This document shows positions 49,409 through 63,387 of a stretch of 64,000 nucleotides of DNA, piece after piece. How positions within the stretch are numbered: position 1 is the stretch's first letter; each line of letters starts with the position of its first letter. The stretch is taken from contig NZ_VOPL01000008.1 of the NCBI RefSeq assembly GCF_007993065.1, positions 62,001 through 126,000 of the forward strand. Direction: 5' to 3'. The notes under the pieces were generated by a model. That model was not told where the DNA came from, made no database searches, and saw only the letters and a list, made by a program, of their open reading frames with translations. Made by a program: the position numbers and the translations under genes. This stretch comes from Paracoccus aurantiacus (GTDB lineage Bacteria > Pseudomonadota > Alphaproteobacteria > Rhodobacterales > Rhodobacteraceae).

Positions 49409-50362
49409 TCAGTCGCGGATATAGGTGGCGATTCCGTCGGGGCCGATGTCGAAGTTCATCAGATCCTCGCCCACTGCCAGCGGGCCGCCATAGGTTTCGC
49501 GTGTCTGCGCGACGATCTCGGGCAGCGTAAGCTCGGGGTATTCGGGGTTCGAGAGCATGACCAGATGCGTATAGGCAGCCAGCCGGGGAGAGGCCGCCGC
49601 GAAGATCTGACCGGCCTGCTGCGGCGTCGTGTGATGGGCGATGACGCGTTTCGCGTGGTCTTCCTCAAGCAGTCCGGGTTGCGCCGCGCCAAGTTCGTGG
49701 ATCAGAAGATCCGCGCCCTTCGCATTTTCGGCGATGCGCTCGTCATAGGTCGTGTCACCCGAGATGACGACCTTGCGCCCGTCATATTCGGCCATCACGC
49801 CATAGTTCGGCTTGATATTCTCGCCGTGATTGGTGGCAAATGCGGTCACCTTCAGCCCGCCCTCGTCAAAGATCACGCCGTCTTCCGAAATCTCGGTCGT
49901 CTCGATTTTCACGCCGTCGGGCGGGTTGCCCTCATCAACGAGGCGAATCTGGATGTCGCCGTCATAAGCGGCCTGAAGCCCGTCGGTCAGCGCCTTGGTA
50001 CCGACCGGCCCAATGACGCGCATTGGCGCGTCGCGACCACCGAAGGGGCGCGCAATCCAGCCGGTCAGCCACAGATCCGCAAGCCCGGAGGTGTGGTCAG
50101 AGTGGAAATGCGTGATGAAGGTCGCATCAATACTGCCGATCGGAACCTTAGCTTGCCACAGCCGGACGGGCGCGTTGCGGCCGGCGTCGATCAGCACGCG
50201 TTTTTGACCACCTTCGATAAGGATCGACGGGCCAGAGCGGTCGGGCCGGGGCGCAGGGCTGGCAGTGCCCAGAAGCGTGACCATGAAATCGCCCGCCTGT
50301 GCGGGAACGGCCATGAGGCATGCTGTTGCGGCGGCGATAGCGTAGCTGAGTTTTCCGATCAT
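49409..50362 (-). CDS. Exported MBL-fold metallo-hydrolase
   Basis: 317 aa. A signal peptide (YAIAAATACLMAVPAQAGDF) shows export to the periplasm. FITHFHSDHTSGLADLWLTG is the H-x-H-x-D-H zinc motif, KVVISGDTTYDERIAENAKG has the bridging Asp, and a later His in RVIAHHTTPQQAG completes the site. The layout resembles the RNase Z/arylsulfatase-like MBL group. The substrate is unknown; in this operon it could release gentisate from an ester or sulfate conjugate outside the cytoplasm. Confidence 0.85.
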   Translation of the reverse strand: MIGKLSYAIAAATACLMAVPAQAGDFMVTLLGTASPAPRPDRSGPSILIEGGQKRVLIDAGRNAPVRLWQAKVPIGSIDATFITHFHSDHTSGLADLWLTGWIARPFGGRDAPMRVIGPVGTKALTDGLQAAYDGDIQIRLVDEGNPPDGVKIETTEISEDGVIFDEGGLKVTAFATNHGENIKPNYGVMAEYDGRKVVISGDTTYDERIAENAKGADLLIHELGAAQPGLLEEDHAKRVIAHHTTPQQAGQIFAAASPRLAAYTHLVMLSNPEYPELTLPEIVAQTRETYGGPLAVGEDLMNFDIGPDGIATYIRD

Positions 50363-52618: not shown

Positions 52619-55186
52619 CTATCGCGACAACTCACGCTCTGCGGCAATTGCCGCCTCGATATGTGCCTGGCGGGTCTGCAGCATGCCGGTCGCGTCATGG
52701 ACATAGCCGCTGCCGCGCAGGATTTGCTGCAAGGTCTGGTCAGTTCGATACCCGTCCAGCAGCGCAGCTATATCCGGTTCGCGGCCCGAGGGGTAATTTT
52801 CGGCCAGAAAGCACCCCTGCACGACCCCTGCCAGCAGCGCCGCCTGCCGCGCCGGATGCCCGGCGATCCCATCGGCGCGGAAGAGATCGCGGTAAAGCGA
52901 CCCCCAACCGGTCCGCCGCGCAGCCCGGTTCTTGAGCTGACCGAGATAGCGGGCGTAAAGCGCGACGTTTTCCAGTGCGGTCAACCGCGCGTCATGCGCC
53001 GGTGCGGCGTCACCAAGCCAAAGCGACAGCCTTTGCGGCAGTGGCATCACGCCACCTTCGGACGGCGGTCCGTCGTCGAAATTACCCTCGCAGAAGATCA
53101 GTGTCACAAGATCAAGCAGCGTTAATTGCTGATCGCCCGGCGCATTCAGCGCGGCATTCGTCTGTTCCACCACGCGCACCAGCCCGTCGCGATTGCGCGT
53201 GACAAAGCCTTGCCTGCCAAGGCCGTGCCATTCCCAATCCTCCGCAACCGCATCGCCCTGCGCGATCAGATGCGGTGCCGAATAATGTCTCACATATCGT
53301 TCTGCCCGATCCATGTCGCTGAGCATCGCGGGTTCCAGAAGCGCGACACGGATGCCGAAAGGCGATGTCCCGGTCAGCGAGTCGATGAACTTGCCGTCGA
53401 AGGCGCAATCGACGGTGGTGATATATTCCCCGTCATCGCCCACGGCCTCCATCCCTTTCGGCACATAAAGATGCGACAGGACACGTCGCTGCCCGACCAG
53501 ATAGGTGACGCCGCCCCGCTCTCGGTCGAACGAGATGATGGGCCGAAAACCTAGGTCTTGCAAAGCGAGCAGCCTGCTTTGGCGCAAAGGGGTGTTCGTG
53601 TCGCCGAAGACCAGCCAGTCTTCGCTGATGTCCACGATCTCACCGAAGATTTCGATGATGCGGTCAATGACCCGTGCCGCGACTGCGCGCCTGAGGGCGG
53701 CGTTGATCTTTTCGCCGATGAACAGGGGAAGCAGCCTTATGCTTGCAGGTTCGCTGCGTTGCAGGGCCGTGACGCGGAAACAGGCCGGGAAGCTTGGAAA
53801 GATCGGGCCGCTGAGATTTTGCAGCGCCATGTCCTGCTGTGCGCGTAGCCGCCACAGTTTCGCCACCTCGTCGGGCCAGACCAGACGTTCGACCTCTACC
53901 GTTTCGCGGTTATAGACGATCGCCGTTCCGGGCTGGGCCGGATGGATCTCATCCTCGGCAAACACGCATTCGTAGGACTGGCCAAACTGTTCACGCAGAC
54001 TGGCCAGCATCTGGCGCGTGGATTCGGGCGAGATGCTGTCCATGATCCAGATATCCTGCGTCATATCCGCAAAGACAGTGGCAATCCGGCGCAAGGTCGC
54101 CTGATCGTGGCGCAGCGCGTGCAGCCATTCCATGTTCCAGACCGCGATATCCAGATCCTGCCCGGTGGCGTTGATTGCGCGCACGACAGTATCCACCCCT
54201 GCCGAGGCATAACCGGATTCGACCGTGGTCAGGCGACCGCGCACGCCGTAAGGCCCGACCAGAGTGTCGATGTCACGAAAATGGGTCAGCACCTCGCGGA
54301 TGGCTGTGTGATCTGCCCCGCCGCCACCTAGGCGCCGCTCCAGATCATTCGCGATGGCCGAGATCATGATGCCTTCATTGGCCACCCGGTAATCGCCGCC
54401 ATCCTGAAGCTGGCGCTCGCGGGCCGCGTGACGGAGGTCCATCTGCTGCCGATCGCACGAGGCGTGATGCAGCGCGCAAAGCTTTCCCTGCCGCGTCAGC
54501 ACCGGCGCACCAGAGGACCCGGTTTCCGTATCGGCGGCATATAGAAGCAGCCCGACATCGACATTCAGGATCTCGGTATCGTCGACCGATGCCTGCTTGT
54601 AATCGCCATTCGGGTGATGGATCAGAAACACCGGCTCGAACGGCCGCCCCGTGAAAGAGCCGCGCGACATCGGGATGAAGCCATAGCCGTGCGGCGCATC
54701 TGCCGCCAGACGCACGAAGGTATAGTCCAGCCCGTCCGTCGCGCTGCTGGTGATGAACAGACGTTCAGGCGCGAGGCGCAATTCGCTGCGTGGACCTTCG
54801 GCGGGGTCTTCCAGCCGCAGCAACTGTTCTGTAGTGCGTTCATATTCGAAATCCAGCTTGGCGAGGGTGGCGGCCTCGGCGCTGTGCAGGACATGGTTGT
54901 TCGTCAGCAGCAGGTTCGGACCGACCAGAAAGCCGGTGCCGCTATTGTCGCCCGAAAGGCCGCGAAAATTGGTGCCGCGCCAGGTGATCCGGCAGACGGC
55001 GCGGCGATAATGCGCAAGCAGATCCAGAAGGCTCGCGTCGATCAGGTTCCTGATCCCGACGCGGGCTTCGAACCCGTCAGCTTCGCCCCAGCCCTCAAGC
55101 ATCTTCTGCGGTCGGTGGATGCTGGGATTGCCGTCAAGTCTGGAAAAAGGTTCGTTCTGCCAATTGCTGAAAAAATCGACTTTCAT
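52619..55186 (-). CDS. Trypsin-like serine protease fused to an EEP-nuclease-like domain
   Basis: 855 aa, no signal peptide. Residues about 55-290 are a trypsin-fold protease: SGTGFLVGPNLLLTNNHVLH (His98), DGLDYTFVRLA (Asp154) and ETGSSGAPVLTRQGKLCALH (Ser225). Residues about 340-580 look like an endonuclease/exonuclease/phosphatase fold: LDIAVWNMEWLHALRHDQA (Asn351), DWLVFGDTNTPLRQ (Asp529, Asn531) and VGQRRVLSHLYVP (His572). The usual Gln-Glu motif appears as IMDSIS, so the metal ligand may be lost. The last roughly 270 residues match nothing I know. It follows the SGNH/M15 gene by 9 bp, with AGGAG overlapping that gene's stop. Function unknown. Confidence 0.75.
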   Translation of the reverse strand: MKVDFFSNWQNEPFSRLDGNPSIHRPQKMLEGWGEADGFEARVGIRNLIDASLLDLLAHYRRAVCRITWRGTNFRGLSGDNSGTGFLVGPNLLLTNNHVLHSAEAATLAKLDFEYERTTEQLLRLEDPAEGPRSELRLAPERLFITSSATDGLDYTFVRLAADAPHGYGFIPMSRGSFTGRPFEPVFLIHHPNGDYKQASVDDTEILNVDVGLLLYAADTETGSSGAPVLTRQGKLCALHHASCDRQQMDLRHAARERQLQDGGDYRVANEGIMISAIANDLERRLGGGGADHTAIREVLTHFRDIDTLVGPYGVRGRLTTVESGYASAGVDTVVRAINATGQDLDIAVWNMEWLHALRHDQATLRRIATVFADMTQDIWIMDSISPESTRQMLASLREQFGQSYECVFAEDEIHPAQPGTAIVYNRETVEVERLVWPDEVAKLWRLRAQQDMALQNLSGPIFPSFPACFRVTALQRSEPASIRLLPLFIGEKINAALRRAVAARVIDRIIEIFGEIVDISEDWLVFGDTNTPLRQSRLLALQDLGFRPIISFDRERGGVTYLVGQRRVLSHLYVPKGMEAVGDDGEYITTVDCAFDGKFIDSLTGTSPFGIRVALLEPAMLSDMDRAERYVRHYSAPHLIAQGDAVAEDWEWHGLGRQGFVTRNRDGLVRVVEQTNAALNAPGDQQLTLLDLVTLIFCEGNFDDGPPSEGGVMPLPQRLSLWLGDAAPAHDARLTALENVALYARYLGQLKNRAARRTGWGSLYRDLFRADGIAGHPARQAALLAGVVQGCFLAENYPSGREPDIAALLDGYRTDQTLQQILRGSGYVHDATGMLQTRQAHIEAAIAAERELSR

Positions 55187-55195
55187 CGCAAGCTC

Positions 55196-56911
55196 CTAAA
55201 AATCGATATTCATTCCGCGCGTGTCGATATGCACAAAGCTGTTGTAACGCCCGATCCCGCCGCTGAATTCCGGCCGCGAGGCCCGCACCTCTTTTGCGAT
55301 ACGGTGCCAGTCGCTGACCGTTCCTTCGGTCGCGGCCCAGTCGATCGCGTTGAAACGAAGGTGCTGACTCCGCGACCTGCCACCGACGCAGGCGTTATAT
55401 TCCTTGTTTCGATAGACGCTGAGAATGCGGATCGGGCAGCCGAGCCTGTCACGGATTTCGTCGAGCATCAGCATCGTCGGCACGATATTGGGCCAGAGCG
55501 ATGCCGGCGGAAGTGCGTTCGAAGCGGCGCATTTACCTGCGCTGTTGCTTCCGCCGAGATACAGGATTTCGGCCATATTGAAGTGCCGCAGGTCTTGCAG
55601 CGTAAAGAAATCGCTGAAACCCGCCGCGTTGAAATTGCTCGATTCGAAGCCGCCGGGGGTGCGGAACGCTTCTTCCAGAATTTCGATATCGCTCTGAGGG
55701 TCCTGGCCAAAGCCCGACATGTCCAGCCCGTCGGTCGGGTTGATGAAGCGGTCCTCTCCCGCATCGGGGTCGCCTGCATCTGCCTGCGATCGCTGGCGGA
55801 CGGCGTTGCGGTAAAGGGTCTCGACAAGATCGCTGGAGGCTGCCGGTATCGCGGCGGACCCTGCATCCGACAGGATCATGCTGCCGTCAACATGGCCCCT
55901 GTCACGTCGTGCTTCCGCAGCCGGGATTGCCGCAGATTCAAAAAGCGGCGTTGCCGGTCGGTCCAGATGAGCGCGGACTGCATCGAGAAGCGGCTGCGCC
56001 GCCCGTGCGAAGCCTTCATCGCTTGGATGAAGCTCGTCATGCCAGTCCTTCGTGCGCCCACCGACAGCGCCGGACAGGTCGGTGAAGCGGTAATTGTCGT
56101 GATGCTTAGCAAGTGCCGAAAGACTGTTGCGGAAATGTTCGACAATAAGCCGGATGACATCGCGCCCGACATCCAGCGGAATACCCTTCTCCTCGAACGG
56201 TTTTCCAAAATGCTTTTTGCCTTTCAACGGAAACGGCGTGTCATAGCCGTGGCCAAAAATAACCACATCCGGAAAATTCAGCGCCACATCCTGAAGAATG
56301 CGCCGATAGTATCCGAGGATTTCGTCAGAGGCGCGTTGCAGCGCCGATTTGTTCAGCAGCTTTTCCGCGCTGAGCCCCTTTTGATAGCGATGCAGGAAAT
56401 TGAACAGTCTGCCATCGCCAAGCAGATCGTTGCCACCGCCCGACAGAAGCATGACACGTGCGCCGCTTTGGCGTAACGCGTCATGATATTCGCGCCGCAC
56501 CGCCATATGTTCGACCAGGTCGCCAGCCGCGCCGAGCGAAAGCGTTGCGAAATCTGGTTGGGCCATAACGTTGTCGATGATGTCGCGCAGAAGCAGCGGG
56601 TATTGGAACCAGCTGTCGCCTTCGGAGACGATGTGCTGTCCGCGAAACCCGCCAAGAAGCTTCACCCTGTAGCTGACAAGCCGCGAGCCGCGGGCGATCC
56701 GGTTTGACCAGTTGATCGCGGCATCGCCTTCGAATGAATCGGTCCCGAGTTCGTCCTGATATTCGGGACGCAGTTCGATGGCTGCATCAAATGGTTTGTC
56801 AGACCCGTCGCTGGGTTCGTAAAGCTGATGAAGAAGCTGGTCCAGCTTCTGTTGATCGTTTGCGGCAATCGCCCGCTTTATTTCAAGATCTATTTCTTTC
56901 GCTAATGACAT
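55196..56911 (-). CDS. SGNH/GDSL hydrolase fused to an M15-type peptidase
   Basis: 571 aa from ATG 56909-56911 (MSLAKEIDLEIKRAIAANDQ), with GAGG 8 bases upstream; an ATG 11 codons earlier is less likely. N-terminal domain: HIVSEGDSWFQYP (Ser100), LLSGGGNDLLGDGR (Asn161) and HDELHPSDEGF (Asp292, His295), the SGNH esterase blocks. A linker of low complexity follows (about 320-400). C-terminal domain: ILSVYRNKEYNACVGGRSRS, then QHLRFNAIDW (His517, Asp524) and NSFVHIDTRG (His561), the zinc site of M15_3 D-Ala-D-Ala-type peptidases. No signal peptide is seen. A cell-wall substrate is likely for the second domain; the fusion is unusual. Confidence 0.8.
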   Translation of the reverse strand: MSLAKEIDLEIKRAIAANDQQKLDQLLHQLYEPSDGSDKPFDAAIELRPEYQDELGTDSFEGDAAINWSNRIARGSRLVSYRVKLLGGFRGQHIVSEGDSWFQYPLLLRDIIDNVMAQPDFATLSLGAAGDLVEHMAVRREYHDALRQSGARVMLLSGGGNDLLGDGRLFNFLHRYQKGLSAEKLLNKSALQRASDEILGYYRRILQDVALNFPDVVIFGHGYDTPFPLKGKKHFGKPFEEKGIPLDVGRDVIRLIVEHFRNSLSALAKHHDNYRFTDLSGAVGGRTKDWHDELHPSDEGFARAAQPLLDAVRAHLDRPATPLFESAAIPAAEARRDRGHVDGSMILSDAGSAAIPAASSDLVETLYRNAVRQRSQADAGDPDAGEDRFINPTDGLDMSGFGQDPQSDIEILEEAFRTPGGFESSNFNAAGFSDFFTLQDLRHFNMAEILYLGGSNSAGKCAASNALPPASLWPNIVPTMLMLDEIRDRLGCPIRILSVYRNKEYNACVGGRSRSQHLRFNAIDWAATEGTVSDWHRIAKEVRASRPEFSGGIGRYNSFVHIDTRGMNIDF

Positions 56912-57022: not shown

Positions 57023-57054
57023 GCGCTGCGGCATCAGGACTGATGCCGCAGCGC
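57023..57054 (-). terminator. Very strong hairpin at the end of the LysR gene
   Basis: GCGCTGCGGCATCAG (57023-57037) and CTGATGCCGCAGCGC (57040-57054) are exact reverse complements separated by two bases. The stem includes the last codons and stop of the LysR gene. There is no T-run, so it may act as an mRNA-stabilising or Rho-assisting hairpin rather than a classical terminator. Confidence 0.55.
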
Positions 57055-57927
57055 CTTTACCAATGCAGCGAATGCCGGTGAATGCTGGCGACGACTTGGA
57101 TAATAAAGATAGAAGCCGTCCCATAGCGGCGAGTAATCGCGTAGCACGATCTGAAGTTTGCCTTCAGCGACGTCCTTGCTGACCAGATCTTCCGGCGCAA
57201 ATGCCAGCCCGAATCCGTCGCGCGCCGCATCGACCACGTCATAGATATTATTGAAAACCAGCCGTCCTTCGACCTTTACGCTGATTTCTTTACCACTCTC
57301 TTCCAGCTCCCACGCGTAAAGCCCGCCGCGGGTTGGAAGGCGCAGATTTATGCAGTCGTGCTCGGTCAGGTCCCCTGGACTTTTCGGCACCGGAAAGGAC
57401 CGGAAATAGGATGGGGCACCGACGACGACGAAGCGGATATCGGGGCTGATCCGGGTTGCGATCATGTCGCGCGCGACCGCGCTGCCCATCCGTATGCCGG
57501 CATCGAAGCGGTCGGCGACAATGTCCTGAAGGTTATAATCGACGCTGAGTTCGATATTCACCTCGGGATATTCGCGCAGGAACTCGCGCAGCCTCGGCCA
57601 CAGGTATTCGCGGATCTGATAATCGCCGGCCGTGATGCGGATGGTTCCGGCCACGCTGTCGCGCAGGCTGCCAAGGCCGTCAAGCTCTGCCGCGATTTCG
57701 TCGAAATGCGATCCTATCCGGTTCAGCAACCGCTCTCCTGCTTCGGTCGGGGAGACGCTGCGGGTTGTGCGTGTCAGCAGGCGGATATCAAGACGTTCCT
57801 CAAGCTGGCGCACCGTATGGCTCAGCGCGGATTGTGAAACGCCAAGCCTGGCGGCGGCCTTGGTGAAACTGCGCTCGCGCGCGACTTCCAGAAACGCGAT
57901 GAGATCGGTCATGTCCTTGCGCTGCAT
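57034..57927 (-). CDS. LysR-family transcriptional regulator
   Basis: 297 aa from ATG 57925-57927 (MQRKDMTDLIAFLEVARERS). FTKAAARLGVSQSALSHTVR and QLEERLDIRLLTRTTRSVSP form the HTH and wing; the rest is a periplasmic-binding-protein-like effector domain ending in YLYYPSRRQHSPAFAALVKA, typical of the CrgA-like LysR subgroup. It is the fourth gene of a same-strand set with CMD, cupin and quinone oxidoreductase genes, which it probably regulates. Confidence 0.92.
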   Translation of the reverse strand: MQRKDMTDLIAFLEVARERSFTKAAARLGVSQSALSHTVRQLEERLDIRLLTRTTRSVSPTEAGERLLNRIGSHFDEIAAELDGLGSLRDSVAGTIRITAGDYQIREYLWPRLREFLREYPEVNIELSVDYNLQDIVADRFDAGIRMGSAVARDMIATRISPDIRFVVVGAPSYFRSFPVPKSPGDLTEHDCINLRLPTRGGLYAWELEESGKEISVKVEGRLVFNNIYDVVDAARDGFGLAFAPEDLVSKDVAEGKLQIVLRDYSPLWDGFYLYYPSRRQHSPAFAALVKALRHQS

Positions 57928-58001
57928 TGATGAGATCCCCGCATGAGTCGGGGTCCATCCTAGCAGTCCGGGACTGCCGCCTACAGGGCGCGCGACGGCC
58001 A

Positions 58002-58985
58002 TCAGGGGGTTATGATGATCGCGCCGGTGATGTTCCGGCCCTCGGCCGCGCGGTGCACGTCGACGATGTCCGAAAGCGGAAAGCGAGCGCCGATATCGAC
58101 GGCGACATGACCCCTGGCGATTGCGTCAAACAGGTCTGCCGCATTGGCTTGCAGCGCTTTCGGGTCGGCGTTGCGCGGGAAAACGCTTGTCGCGGTCAGG
58201 TAAAGCTCCCCCTTCGCGCGCAGCAGCGCGGTGTCAATCGCTGGCGGCGCGCCAGAGGCAGAGCCGAAGCTGACGACCGTGCCGAAAGGTGCCGCACAGT
58301 CCAGCGATTTCAGCAATGTCGCCTTGCCGACGGAATCATAGATTGCCTGCGCCTTTCGCCAGCCCGTCGCGCGCAGGAAAGCCTCTGGCCAGTCGTCCGC
58401 CCCGGTGTCGATTGCGCCAATCGCGCCCGCATCCAGTATCGCAGCCGTCTTAGTCGGGCTTCCGGTCGTTCCGATGACATCGACGCCCATCGCCGTCGCC
58501 CACCGCGTCATAATCTGCCCGACGCCGCCAGCGGCGGCATGAACCAGTATCAGATCGCCGGGTTTCGCCGCAAAGGCGGCGCGCAGCAGATATTGCGCCG
58601 TCAGCCCCTTGAACAGCAGCGAGGCCGCCGCCTCGTCGCTGATCTGATCCGGCAGATGCACAAGCCTGTCAGCCGACACATTGCGCGCATCCGCATAGGC
58701 CCCCGTCCCGGCATTCATATAGGCCACGCGATCGCCGATAGAGATATCCGTGACGCCGTCGCCCACGGCTTCGACCACGCCCGCCGCCTCGAACCCTAGA
58801 CCCGAGGGGAAGGTCAGCGGATAGGTGCCGCTGCGCTGATAGACGTCGATATAGTTGAAGCCGATAGCGGTGTGGCGAATGCGGACTTCGCCGGGGCCGG
58901 GCGGTGGAAGCTCGCCAGCGACGATGCGCATCACCTCGGGCGGTCCTGCGCTGTCGATTTCGACACGATTGATCTGAGGCATCAT
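58002..58985 (-). CDS. Quinone oxidoreductase (zinc-independent MDR family)
   Basis: 327 aa. FNYIDVYQRSGTYPLTFPSG, LGFEAAGVVEAVGDGVTDIS and LFKGLTAQYLLRAAFAAKPG are QOR/zeta-crystallin signatures, and ILVHAAAGGVGQIMTRWATA is the NADPH loop. It reduces quinones or enones with NADPH. The start may be either of the two initial Met codons. It lies 74 bp upstream of the LysR gene and 96 bp downstream of the cupin gene on the same strand. Confidence 0.92.
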   Translation of the reverse strand: MMPQINRVEIDSAGPPEVMRIVAGELPPPGPGEVRIRHTAIGFNYIDVYQRSGTYPLTFPSGLGFEAAGVVEAVGDGVTDISIGDRVAYMNAGTGAYADARNVSADRLVHLPDQISDEAAASLLFKGLTAQYLLRAAFAAKPGDLILVHAAAGGVGQIMTRWATAMGVDVIGTTGSPTKTAAILDAGAIGAIDTGADDWPEAFLRATGWRKAQAIYDSVGKATLLKSLDCAAPFGTVVSFGSASGAPPAIDTALLRAKGELYLTATSVFPRNADPKALQANAADLFDAIARGHVAVDIGARFPLSDIVDVHRAAEGRNITGAIIITP

Positions 58986-60909: not shown

Positions 60910-63387
60910 TTATCGCGCCTCGGTTCCGACCGTTCCGCATCGTGACGTCATGTCAAAGCCGATGCGCTGCATTTCCAGCAGGAACGCGCGCCAGACATTG
61001 TCGCGCACATCCTGACTGCCGTTCCGGATCGAGCGTAGGTGCGGCTGGCGGATAAGCGCCCCGCGAAGCGCGGAATCGGTGGGCGTGTCGGCGCTGCCGG
61101 GGGCAAGGATGGCAAGGTAGTCTTCGCATGCCATGCGCCGCATGGCCCGAACGCTCGGCCCGTCCGCAAGATGCGGATGAATATATTTCGCCGACATCCG
61201 TTCTGCCATGTCGATGGCCAGAAGCGTTGCGGGGCTGTCGAAAGTCAGCGTGATTTCGTCATCCTGACGCTCCGCACCGGGAGGCGGAGACGAGAGGTCG
61301 CGCGCAGTGATCGCATCGAGGCAGGCCCGCCCTTCGGGCAACGGCGCGCACAGCCAGCCGCCCTTCGCCGCGACATCTTCAGCGGCAATGTGGCAGGGCT
61401 GCTGCGCTGCATCGGCATCGCCTGCCTGGTCAATCCTGCACCTCGCCATATCAATGGGCAGTTCCGGCCAGTCAAAGCGAAGCGACAAGCCGCCCGTCAG
61501 CCTTCCTGCAGGCATCGCCTGCGCACCCGCAAGTGGCGCAGCCTGCGGGGCGGGTTCGATGACCTTGCCGAGTTCCGTAACCGCGGCGCTGAACATCGAC
61601 GGCACAGCGACAAACCCGCCATCGGTCAGGATGAACCCCGGCAACCGATCATCCATGCGCCGTGCCTGCCACGCGCCATCCCGCAGAAGAAGAACGACTC
61701 CGGTGCGCAGATGGGCTTCGATGACGCGACCATCTGCGGGATGCGGGGCAGGCACGTCCATATAGCGCACGGCCCCGATCTGCGCCCGCAATCCGATCGC
61801 GCAATCTGCGTCCTCGCCCACATTCGCACCATGACAACTGAGCATTATGTTCGGACTGTCCTGGGTATCGTCGCTGCCGTTCGGAAGGTCCTGCGGTTCC
61901 AGAACCGAAATCTCGGTCGCGGCGCTCGCGTCCCGCGAAGCCGTGGCGGCGGAGAAGACGAAATCAGGTTTCGCAAGCTCGGTCACCGTCGGGGCCGGGC
62001 GCAGCGCGGGTGTCGCGTTCAGTCGGAACTGGCGGTTCAACAAGGTGCGTTCGACCGTTATCAGGCCGGTGGCCGCTATAGCGGGATCAGCCTGTCTGGT
62101 CTGCACATCTCGTGCCTCGTCCAGCATGAATGGCGTCCATGATGCGAACATCAGGGCGAACAGCGTGATCCAGACCATCCGGCCACGCTGGACGCCAAAG
62201 AAGAAGGATGCACCGCGAAACCAAGTGCCAAGCCGCGCTGACGAGCGGCGTATCGGCGGCACAAGCCAGCCGAACAACCATATGAGCGGACGAAGCAGGA
62301 TCAGCCACAGCAGCCAGAAAATCAGGACCTGACCAAGCGCGATGCTGACGGCGGTAATCGCGCCAAGCGCGAAATCAGCGAAGCTGTCGCTGTATCGCAT
62401 CAGCCTGAACACGGAGAGAATTAAGATCAGCGCGCCGAGCAATTTCCACAGGCCGCCTCTCTTTCGCGACGGGTCGCGGCCCTGTTCGTCCTGCGCCGCG
62501 GCGCGGGAAGGCCGCCCGGAAAGACGTTGCAGGAAATGCTGCTGATAGGTGCGTTCCGCGTAAGGGTGGCGCCGCAGGAACCCGACCCCGTCCCGGCGCC
62601 ATTCCAGCCGATCCTCGATCTGTTGCACCCATTCAAGCGGCGGCCGACTGCGCTTTTCGCCGTCATGCTGTTCCAAATGACGGATAAGCGCCGCTTCAAA
62701 GTTACGCAGGACGCCCGGATCATAAAGCGCTGGCGAGACCAGCAACGCTGCCCAGACGGCCCGGCTGTAATTCGGTCGGTCCAGCAGATCAGCGACGCGC
62801 TCGTGGAAATATGCGGGGTCACTGGTGCTGCGCCACGGGCGGATCTGCGGCTTGGGACGGGAAAGCGGCCCTTGCTGATGCGCATGCCCGCGCCCCTCAT
62901 CGGGTGCGGCTTCGGCTGGCGCGGGTTCGTGCGTTTCTGCTTCGGCCTCGTCCGCAGTTTCGCTGCGCGCCGGATCTGCGGCAACTGGCTGTTCGTCGTT
63001 GCCGCCCCGAGACGGGTCCTCGTTCTCATCCTCCTCGAATGGCGGAGCGGATGAGCTTGACGCCGTCGGATCGTCAGCGTCATCCCGCGCCGAAAGTTCG
63101 CCGATGTCGCGGACGCGCTGGCGTGGCGTGCGGGTCCGGGCTTCGCTAGGCGCTTCCGGTTTGGTCAGCCCGCTCAGCACCGATTTGCGCCGGTGCCCGC
63201 CCGATCCGGTCTGGCGCAGCGCAAATTCGTAGGCATGGCGCAAACGCGAAAAGCCCTCGACATCGTCGCCGGCGGCGCTCAGCGGCTTCAGCCGCGCGGC
63301 ATAGGCGCGCCGCACCGTTTTCGCATCGTCTGTCGGCGCAGCCAGACCAAGTTCGCTCCAGGGCCACCCGATCTCGTCAGATGACAT
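60910..63387 (-). CDS. Membrane-anchored J-domain-like protein, Hsp70 partner
   Basis: 825 aa. Residues about 8-58 (WPWSELGLAAPTDDAKTVRR, AYAARLKP and GFSRLRHAYEFALRQ) follow the J-domain helices, but the HPD tripeptide is missing. Residues 70-185 are low complexity and acidic. Hydrophobic segments lie at about 313-330, 338-377 and 403-421. The remaining 400 residues hold eight cysteines while the first 420 hold none, which points to a disulfide-bonded periplasmic C-terminus. The start overlaps the Hsp70 gene end by 11 bp. E. coli DjlB/DjlC with HscC is a comparable pairing. Confidence 0.78.
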   Translation of the reverse strand: MSSDEIGWPWSELGLAAPTDDAKTVRRAYAARLKPLSAAGDDVEGFSRLRHAYEFALRQTGSGGHRRKSVLSGLTKPEAPSEARTRTPRQRVRDIGELSARDDADDPTASSSSAPPFEEDENEDPSRGGNDEQPVAADPARSETADEAEAETHEPAPAEAAPDEGRGHAHQQGPLSRPKPQIRPWRSTSDPAYFHERVADLLDRPNYSRAVWAALLVSPALYDPGVLRNFEAALIRHLEQHDGEKRSRPPLEWVQQIEDRLEWRRDGVGFLRRHPYAERTYQQHFLQRLSGRPSRAAAQDEQGRDPSRKRGGLWKLLGALILILSVFRLMRYSDSFADFALGAITAVSIALGQVLIFWLLWLILLRPLIWLFGWLVPPIRRSSARLGTWFRGASFFFGVQRGRMVWITLFALMFASWTPFMLDEARDVQTRQADPAIAATGLITVERTLLNRQFRLNATPALRPAPTVTELAKPDFVFSAATASRDASAATEISVLEPQDLPNGSDDTQDSPNIMLSCHGANVGEDADCAIGLRAQIGAVRYMDVPAPHPADGRVIEAHLRTGVVLLLRDGAWQARRMDDRLPGFILTDGGFVAVPSMFSAAVTELGKVIEPAPQAAPLAGAQAMPAGRLTGGLSLRFDWPELPIDMARCRIDQAGDADAAQQPCHIAAEDVAAKGGWLCAPLPEGRACLDAITARDLSSPPPGAERQDDEITLTFDSPATLLAIDMAERMSAKYIHPHLADGPSVRAMRRMACEDYLAILAPGSADTPTDSALRGALIRQPHLRSIRNGSQDVRDNVWRAFLLEMQRIGFDMTSRCGTVGTEAR

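Follow-up and report, generated by a model that had tools for sequence, protein, structure and literature searches.

Adjacent genes for a trypsin-like protease and an SGNH esterase in Paracoccus aurantiacus: a candidate protease-gated lytic module

We analysed a 64,000-nucleotide stretch of Paracoccus aurantiacus DNA (RefSeq assembly GCF_007993065.1, contig NZ_VOPL01000008.1, positions 62,001 to 126,000 of the forward strand; hereafter the window), which carries on its minus strand two large adjacent genes, P2 and, downstream of it, P1, with 9 bp between them. The initial annotation, made from the sequence, had described two large neighbouring open reading frames (ORFs) at this spacing, and the ORF list gives the same positions. 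It had also counted four hydrolase-like domains in the two products. The trypsin, EEP-fold, SGNH and M15 domains are supported, but a fifth, the C-terminal lytic-transglycosylase-like domain of P1, had been missed and the EEP active site is degenerate. The genes and their domains are:

52619..55186, minus strand: P1 gene, a trypsin-like protease / EEP-fold / lytic-transglycosylase-like protein of 855 aa (ORF, Pfam, start region, homologues)
54470..54940, minus strand: Trypsin_2 domain, P1 residues 83-239, triad His98, Asp154, Ser225 (Pfam PF13365, E 7e-17, above cut-off)
53336..54163, minus strand: EEP-fold domain with degenerate active site, P1 residues about 342-617 (AlphaFold2 model, TDP2 fold match)
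52622..53218, minus strand: predicted lytic-transglycosylase-like domain, P1 residues about 657-855, Glu700 (AlphaFold2 pLDDT 92, MltE match)
55196..56911, minus strand: P2 gene, an SGNH esterase / M15 peptidase protein of 571 aa from the ATG at 56911 (ORF, Pfam, start by homology)
55976..56734, minus strand: SGNH hydrolase domain, Ser100, Asn161, Asp292, His295 in ATG numbering (Pfam PF13472 and our own hidden Markov model, HMM)
55931..55933, minus strand: amidase-less point at about residue 327 of P2, where relatives carry Amidase_3 (tblastn against the relative L060, alignment)
55223..55585, minus strand: M15_3 peptidase domain, His517, Asp524, His561, Asp563 (Pfam PF08291, E 2.7e-16, above cut-off)

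P1 starts at an ATG preceded by AGGAG. The longest ORF of P2 begins at a TTG (56944), and we take the ATG at 56911 as its likely start because the L060 homologue begins ('MSLVTDIN...') where the window protein reads 'MSLAKEID...' in the alignment and because GAGG stands immediately 5' of this ATG. A plausible ribosome site is thereby present at both gene starts. The residues previously named as catalytic, Ser225, Ser100 and His517, lie in columns kept in 48/50, 103/103 and 44/44 rows, respectively. Neither N-terminus looks like a signal peptide, as had been noted before, and the hydropathy profiles show no long hydrophobic stretch, the highest 19-residue mean being 1.19 in P1 and 1.03 in P2. 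Likewise, 27 of the 28 proteins encoded at the window and 13 other loci contain no 19-residue mean above 1.6.

The trypsin triad of P1 is conserved in the alignment columns (His 49/50, Asp 48/50, Ser 48/50). The EEP domain of the window protein gave no Pfam match, and Exo_endo_phos was matched by 8 of 14 aligned P1 relatives (best 2.5e-13). The fold, as well as that of the M15 domain, which is backed by Pfam, had been assigned by the initial annotation, and for EEP this assignment holds in structure comparisons. An AlphaFold2 model of P1 residues 300-855, built from 15 aligned sequences (mean pLDDT 79, pTM 0.54), matches TDP2 (Foldseek E 8.8e-9; VIA-align Z 15.7, root-mean-square deviation (rmsd) 3.2, 214 aligned) and also DNase I. 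P1 (about 342-617) shares the fold with these enzymes but, unlike them, it has lost in the window the catalytic Glu, His and Asp along with the SDH motif: the catalytic positions hold Ser384, Phe489 and Ser571, and TGTSP replaces SDHRP. Among 19 rows the catalytic Glu is kept in 9, the His in 8 and the Asp in 9, with all three together in 8. On the tree of the neighbouring trypsin domain (19 rows, some with long branches) the active-site state requires two changes, and judged from these sequences the site was probably lost twice. The window EEP domain is thus probably no longer a nuclease, and because its site is lost, attack on nucleic acids by this domain is unlikely in the window copy.

The last 206 residues of P1, modelled alone, reached pLDDT 92. 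Their best match was MltE (VIA-align Z 10.0, rmsd 3.2, 158 aligned), followed by further structural neighbours among MltC, Slt, MltF and goose-type (g-type) lysozyme. Rows 1-24 of the comparison, spanning Z 10.0 to 6.1, consist entirely of transglycosylases or g-type lysozymes; further down Z falls, reaching 4.0 at row 38 and then 2.5 at row 50. Like these enzymes, the predicted fold of residues 657-855 has one invariant Glu at a helix end (Glu700, 12/12 rows), a candidate catalytic residue. The agreement of the 24 rows, the subsequent fall in Z and the invariance of Glu700 are the basis of the transglycosylase-like assignment. Unlike the known lytic transglycosylases, the P1 C-terminus gave no sequence-level match in Pfam or PDB, and Foldseek alone found none at E 0.001, with a transglycosylase only at E 8.5; the match emerged when its candidates were realigned. 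We speak of a predicted lytic-transglycosylase-like fold with putative activity.

In P2, the SGNH domain matched Lipase_GDSL_2 at 33.0 bits, barely above the cut-off of 32.9, and our own SGNH HMM covers residues 71-323 of the TTG-start ORF. The blocks with Ser, Gly, Asn and Asp-x-x-His are present in the window and nearly all rows, and the catalytic columns are conserved (Ser 103/103, Asn 102/103, Asp 101/103, His 103/103). A profile search for a solved relative gave no useful one (best E 0.17), so the substrate of the esterase cannot be inferred from structure. The N-terminus preceding the SGNH domain was considered as a shared adaptor domain and rejected: its HMM matched SGNH ORFs only (115/115 domain hits), although it contains 25 SGNH residues, which biases it that way. 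The zinc site of the M15 domain, His-x6-Asp plus His-x-Asp, keeps all four columns in 44/44 rows.

Compared with its relatives, P2 lacks a domain. In tblastn against L060, P2 residues 1-327 and 327-571 match stretches 756 bp apart, and the order SGNH-Amidase_3-M15 is found in 12 full-length relatives (Pfam confirmed Amidase_3 in L063, a member of the wider group). A thirteenth, L062, carries Amidase_3 in a split gene: on the pSymA plasmid of S. meliloti (L062:7959-10485) the SGNH-amidase-M15 gene is read as two overlapping ORFs, by a frameshift or a sequencing error. Only the window copy and a Roseibium copy (L096) are without Amidase_3, and two changes are needed on the trypsin-domain tree. 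The enzymes of the ancestral set would then, by prediction, have cleaved peptidoglycan at the glycan strand, at the amide bond and in its peptides.

The two genes form an obligatory pair. They are adjacent in 15/15 distinct genomes with the trypsin-EEP / SGNH-M15 architecture (the window, L060, L061, L062 and L086-L096), so the co-occurrence on which the initial annotation had made its proposal depend is strict. No third gene of at least 80 aa is common to all 15 loci, ORFs antisense to the pair aside, which formed the only other 15-locus cluster. Furthermore, both halves occur in one frame in nature. In the genus of the window, L205 encodes a single 1454-aa SGNH-Amidase_2-PG_binding_3-trypsin-EEP protein (Pfam identified Amidase_2, PG_binding_3 and trypsin, whereas SGNH and EEP come from our own HMMs only), in which the amidase behind SGNH is unrelated to Amidase_3. 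Other fusions are trypsin-EEP-SGNH in L068 and SGNH-trypsin-EEP in L134, L154 and L161. On an R. etli plasmid (L061:10560-18520) the module genes are followed by a second trypsin fused to PLD (Pfam) and a patatin/phospholipase gene (record annotation), forming an enlarged hydrolase array.

A search of 84,980 species genomes with a profile of 20 SGNH domains returned at least 516 relatives. We examined the best 80 of these, chosen for SGNH alone, with up to 10 kb per side and near-copies included; the coupling figures therefore apply to the nearer part of the SGNH family. A caspase, trypsin or subtilisin domain lies in the same ORF in 65/80 loci and within 3 kb in 12/80, so 77/80 are coupled to a protease, and two of the 3/80 loci with none are on contigs under 7 kb. 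As background, 60 Trypsin_2 and 11 caspase domains over the cut-off were counted in 21 related genomes of about 76 Mb (13 from the genus and 8 from the class; subtilisins uncounted), giving a chance of about 1% for such a domain in an 8-kb stretch, as against the 77/80 observed. In addition, a C1-peptidase-like gene is found within 3 kb in 44 of these 80 loci, mostly directly upstream of SGNH-caspase genes. L192 and L125, the latter identical in locus to L193, have it joined to SGNH-caspase in one frame of about 1800 aa.

The SGNH domain occurs in diverse architectures. Over 113 loci, duplicates included, we found 107 SGNH ORFs: 28 SGNH-caspase-M15, 26 SGNH-caspase, 15 SGNH alone, 14 SGNH-Amidase_3-M15, 9 SGNH-trypsin, 5 SGNH-trypsin-NucA, 3 SGNH-trypsin-EEP, 2 trypsin-SGNH and 5 single cases. 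The domain HMMs were built from stretches cut by eye. Pfam confirmed the labels SGNH, trypsin, caspase, M15, Amidase_3, S8, M74, NucA, EEP, PLD and C1 in representatives (C1 in L064, not in the fused L192); the tentative labels GH24, SLT and NlpC were not confirmed there. Stricter pattern-based active-site counts were SGNH 86/102, M15 19/43, trypsin 41/49 and caspase 48/54. The patterns are too strict for the first three, for which the column counts supersede them, and the caspase count stands. Five loci (L070, L071, L072, L075, L077) were dropped from the active-site counts and the SGNH tree as the same loci as L092, L095, L106, L110 and L158; only L070 and L071 were dropped from the trypsin-domain tree of EEP and amidase states, and the SGNH tree also omits L167-L173 (short flanks).

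The SGNH tree of 96 rows comprises 54 linked to caspase, 38 to trypsin, 1 to subtilisin and 3 to none. Caspase-linked and trypsin-linked rows part with a single change: shuffles average 31.5 changes for the caspase group, for which the real tree needs 1, a contrast inflated by near-copies. This single-change split indicates that the SGNH domain and the protease type are inherited together. The payload domains vary among relatives (M15, amidases, NucA, EEP, PLD), and unrelated wall-cutting families recur among them (Amidase_3, Amidase_2, M15, M74, transglycosylase-like). The initial proposal that such a set could attack several polymers at once is upheld insofar as hydrolases are combined and relatives add amidase, transglycosylase-like, M15, NucA or PLD domains; in detail, the probably dead EEP domain of the window does not support it.

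Several members of the wider group have features of their own. A plasmid of Rhizobium sp. TH2 (L063:7974-13124) encodes a 1716-aa protein with SGNH, Amidase_3, M74 (penicillin-insensitive murein endopeptidase) and subtilisin domains; YcaO and TfuA genes (record annotation) precede it by a few genes. In a two-gene caspase branch (L102, L103, L114, L121 and others) a C1-peptidase-like gene is followed by SGNH-caspase-M15, often of 1116-1193 aa; the C-terminal 292 residues of the L102 protein gave no Pfam match. At L065:14244-16615, free-standing EEP-family and phospholipase-D-family genes are found close to a YEATS-associated gene (record annotation), and an SGNH-caspase gene lies a few kb away.

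The earlier description of the pair as an accessory cassette agrees with its distribution. Full-length P1 is present in 3/125 genomes of the window's genus, all three also with P2, and in two more (G648, G588) decayed fragments were found: SGNH and transglycosylase-like fragments side by side at L203:6358-6928, and a transglycosylase-like fragment only at L204:6997-7541. The congener G622 shares the catabolic cluster and the MarR gene with the window but lacks the module. An exact empty site was sought and rejected, as G622 has no LysR match in the 14 kb examined and the LysR orthologue of G678 stands in another context. In the class, the SGNH-centred group is rare (8/385 genomes), and several copies are on large plasmids; M15 relatives that stand alone are frequent in the family. 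The hosts of the best 80 SGNH loci are, by record titles, mainly Rhodobacterales and Rhizobiales, and also Granulosicoccus, Thauera, Zoogloea, Massilia, Pirellulaceae, Desulfobacteraceae and cyanobacteria. Among viral contigs no more than 5 SGNH relatives turned up, at 22-30% identity, and with relatives so few and distant a phage origin is not supported.

The neighbours in the window are a MarR-type regulator on one side and a LysR gene on the other, as had been described. The former lies tail to tail with P1 and ends 21 bp from its stop, an orientation that places P1-P2 outside the catabolic operon beyond the MarR gene. The latter is a possible regulator and not a conserved part of the module:

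57034..58002, minus strand: LysR-type regulator gene, on the same strand and 122 bp upstream of P2

LysR-type genes (one BLAST cluster) are present at 4/15 module loci. Promoter and terminator scans gave no more matches than in shuffles. Elsewhere in the window, a gene at 49409-50362, whose product we take to be metallo-beta-lactamase-like, lies in what is presumably a gentisate-degradation-like cluster and has no tblastn match in G622 (L202), which has the surrounding cluster. At 60910-63387 a large protein is encoded, presumably with a J-domain-like start and hydrophobic segments, as named from its sequence.

No informative PADLOC or NCBIfam match to P1 or P2 was found (best PADLOC, the trypsin domain, E 3e-4). 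System 3 of Kaur et al. 2020 (eLife e52696, PMC7159879) is a trypsin-like peptidase core with a NucA endonuclease, mostly of alphaproteobacteria, with optional subtilisin and optional lysozyme- and papain-like peptidoglycan effectors, for which a proteolytic cascade deploying the effectors was proposed. The window has such a peptidase with an intact triad, and trypsin-NucA occurs in some SGNH loci, fused or as a separate gene (e.g. L067, L073, L097, L106, L109, L163). In contrast to System 3, P1 and P2, the module's only genes in the window, contain no Endonuclease_NS (NucA), a domain that Pfam does find in sister loci, L097 for example, and no STAND gene is common to the module loci. As to EAD1, the N-termini of P1 and P2 gave no Pfam domain save a sub-threshold PspAA, in a search that included no separate EAD1 model. 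The constant partner here is moreover an SGNH esterase, and the text of Kaur et al. names no SGNH, lipase, esterase or EEP. The VMAP systems of the same source (PMC7159879), in which an alpha/beta-hydrolase gene always lies beside a caspase, offer an analogy to the SGNH-caspase combination found here.

For nuclease-protease pairs and the caspase-nuclease system Canu, Tuck et al. 2025 (PMC12799240) proved activation by proteolysis as well as antiphage defence. There, too, a trypsin-like or caspase protease is co-encoded with a hydrolase, but the partner is a DNase of the metallo-beta-lactamase fold instead of SGNH, M15, EEP-fold and transglycosylase-like domains, and a protein of a defence system is fused to their trypsin-like protease, whereas the window module has no recognisable sensor. 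The text names neither SGNH nor peptidoglycan. Asplund-Samuelsson et al. 2012 (PMC3501461) described a metacaspase of Chitinophaga pinensis that also has Amidase_2 and Lipase_GDSL, in their words a highly destructive weapon. It unites protease, GDSL lipase and amidase in one protein and resembles our caspase branch by description; unlike our group, it appears in the sections consulted as a single sequence, with no paired gene, trypsin branch or family-wide coupling. No description of the SGNH-protease coupling as a class was found in the open literature, to which the search was confined, leaving subscription papers and supplements outside it. The module is best read as akin to nuclease-protease immunity and as varying the theme of the peptidase/NucA conflict systems that Kaur et al. 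described, with a function that we infer, and the protease activation that Kaur et al. proposed and that was shown for the Tuck pairs may apply to P1-P2 as well.

We tentatively favour, at somewhat less than an even chance, a reading of P1 and P2 as a cytoplasmic, protease-gated, two-protein lytic death module that most likely kills its own infected cell against a phage or other invader. A dormant cytoplasmic P1-P2 complex would await a trigger, upon which the trypsin domain, acting as the switch, would cleave the linkers of P1 and P2 and free the attached enzymes. The SGNH esterase might then attack a lipid or other acyl ester, possibly in the inner membrane. Peptidoglycan peptides and strands would next be cut by the M15 peptidase and the transglycosylase-like domain until the cell lyses; the invader would be stopped through the death of its host. 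The EEP domain of the window would serve only as scaffold, substrate or sensor. Sequence, models and comparison bear out the domains with their predicted active sites, the pairing, the SGNH-protease coupling and the accessory distribution, whereas gating by proteolysis, a lipid target, self-killing and a role against phage belong to the proposed model. We arrived at this model because the SGNH domain and the protease are inherited together, the wall-cutting payloads are unrelated, no export signal was seen and the distribution is patchy and decaying.

Several observations count against this reading. In the P1 relative L091, hydropathy reaches 1.85 over one stretch of the transglycosylase-like region. 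The M15 and transglycosylase-like domains have their substrate beyond the cytoplasm, and self-lysis would require a membrane-crossing route that can only be guessed at; trypsin cleavage of P1 or P2 is likewise a supposition of the model. The transglycosylase-like call comes from a mostly helical model, for which middling Z values, even 10, may be chance according to the warning of the tool. A nuclease would suit an antiphage role, though the EEP site is degenerate in 11/19 rows. No sensor, STAND NTPase or regulator gene is common to the 15 loci. Finally, there is no defence-island signal: 2/97 neighbouring ORFs matched PADLOC models (mad2, mad3) versus 0/60 control ORFs, too few for a claim of island membership, which we rejected. 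The 97 ORFs were all those of 150-700 aa called at 12 module loci by a rough gene finder, some surely not genes; the control consisted of 60 scanned of 89 ORFs (window 36, L201 13, L202 11), with L203 and the loci fetched for a trypsin or SGNH match excluded.

Among the alternatives, delivery into rival cells as antibacterial effectors of a type VI or other contractile system, with an immunity gene unrecognised nearby, is unlikely but fares best. Peptidoglycan- and ester-cutting enzymes are typical of type VI-type effectors, the genome of the window has a VipB gene, and this route needs no signal peptide, in keeping with P1 and P2. The VipB gene is, however, on a different contig (C1) from the window (C41), and one of three module genomes tested, G038, has no VipB match. 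Pfam at E 1 found no VgrG, PAAR, Rhs or MIX delivery domain in P1 or P2, though short markers could escape, nor do the 15 loci share a candidate immunity gene of at least 80 aa, though a small or fast-changing one could escape. A protease linked to an esterase at nearly every locus would also be unusual for this effector class.

We give a still lower probability to a module for regulated autolysis or dispersal, releasing DNA, gene-transfer particles or biofilm matrix, with no part in defence. The gene set is predicted to cut stem peptides and glycan strands and, in relatives, the amide bond, and it adjoins metabolic regulators in the window; yet a patchy occurrence (3/125), the remnants in G648 and G588 and the plasmid copies point to a role in conflict or mobility more than to a conserved step of the life cycle. 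Quite improbable is a trypsin-esterase system for ordinary maintenance of the cell's own wall or lipoproteins that kills nothing. M15 and transglycosylase domains do occur in housekeeping enzymes too, and the stand-alone M15 relatives agree with this, but the lack of a visible export signal, the accessory distribution and the fusion of the same SGNH group to NucA, EEP or caspase do not. That two unrelated genes are neighbours by chance is next to impossible and was rejected, as the 15/15 adjacency, the natural fusions and the 9-bp spacing contradict it and we found no support beyond the flanking genes being unrelated metabolic regulators.

The lytic death module remains our preferred reading of P1 and P2. 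Beyond the window, it is possible, although we hold this with reserve, that the SGNH esterase defines an unnamed class of prokaryotic protease-gated death systems, in which the esterase is the constant core, the protease the switch and the executioners are changeable. The switch would be caspase or trypsin in two separate branches and once subtilisin, often with a papain-family-like partner gene, and the executioners would be amidases, M15, transglycosylase, NucA, EEP and PLD; the chance that the SGNH-centred group merits a separate name is fair. In the bacterial death systems known to be linked to caspase or trypsin, the executioners are mainly nucleases, NADases or gasdermins. If the reading is true, the same esterase with either protease type and frequent wall-cutting payloads would add controlled lysis to the bacterial death systems. 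Gene sets that differ in protease or executioner would provide direct test pairs, and the window copy, in which the amidase and the EEP active site are lost and the rest is kept, would be a natural experiment.

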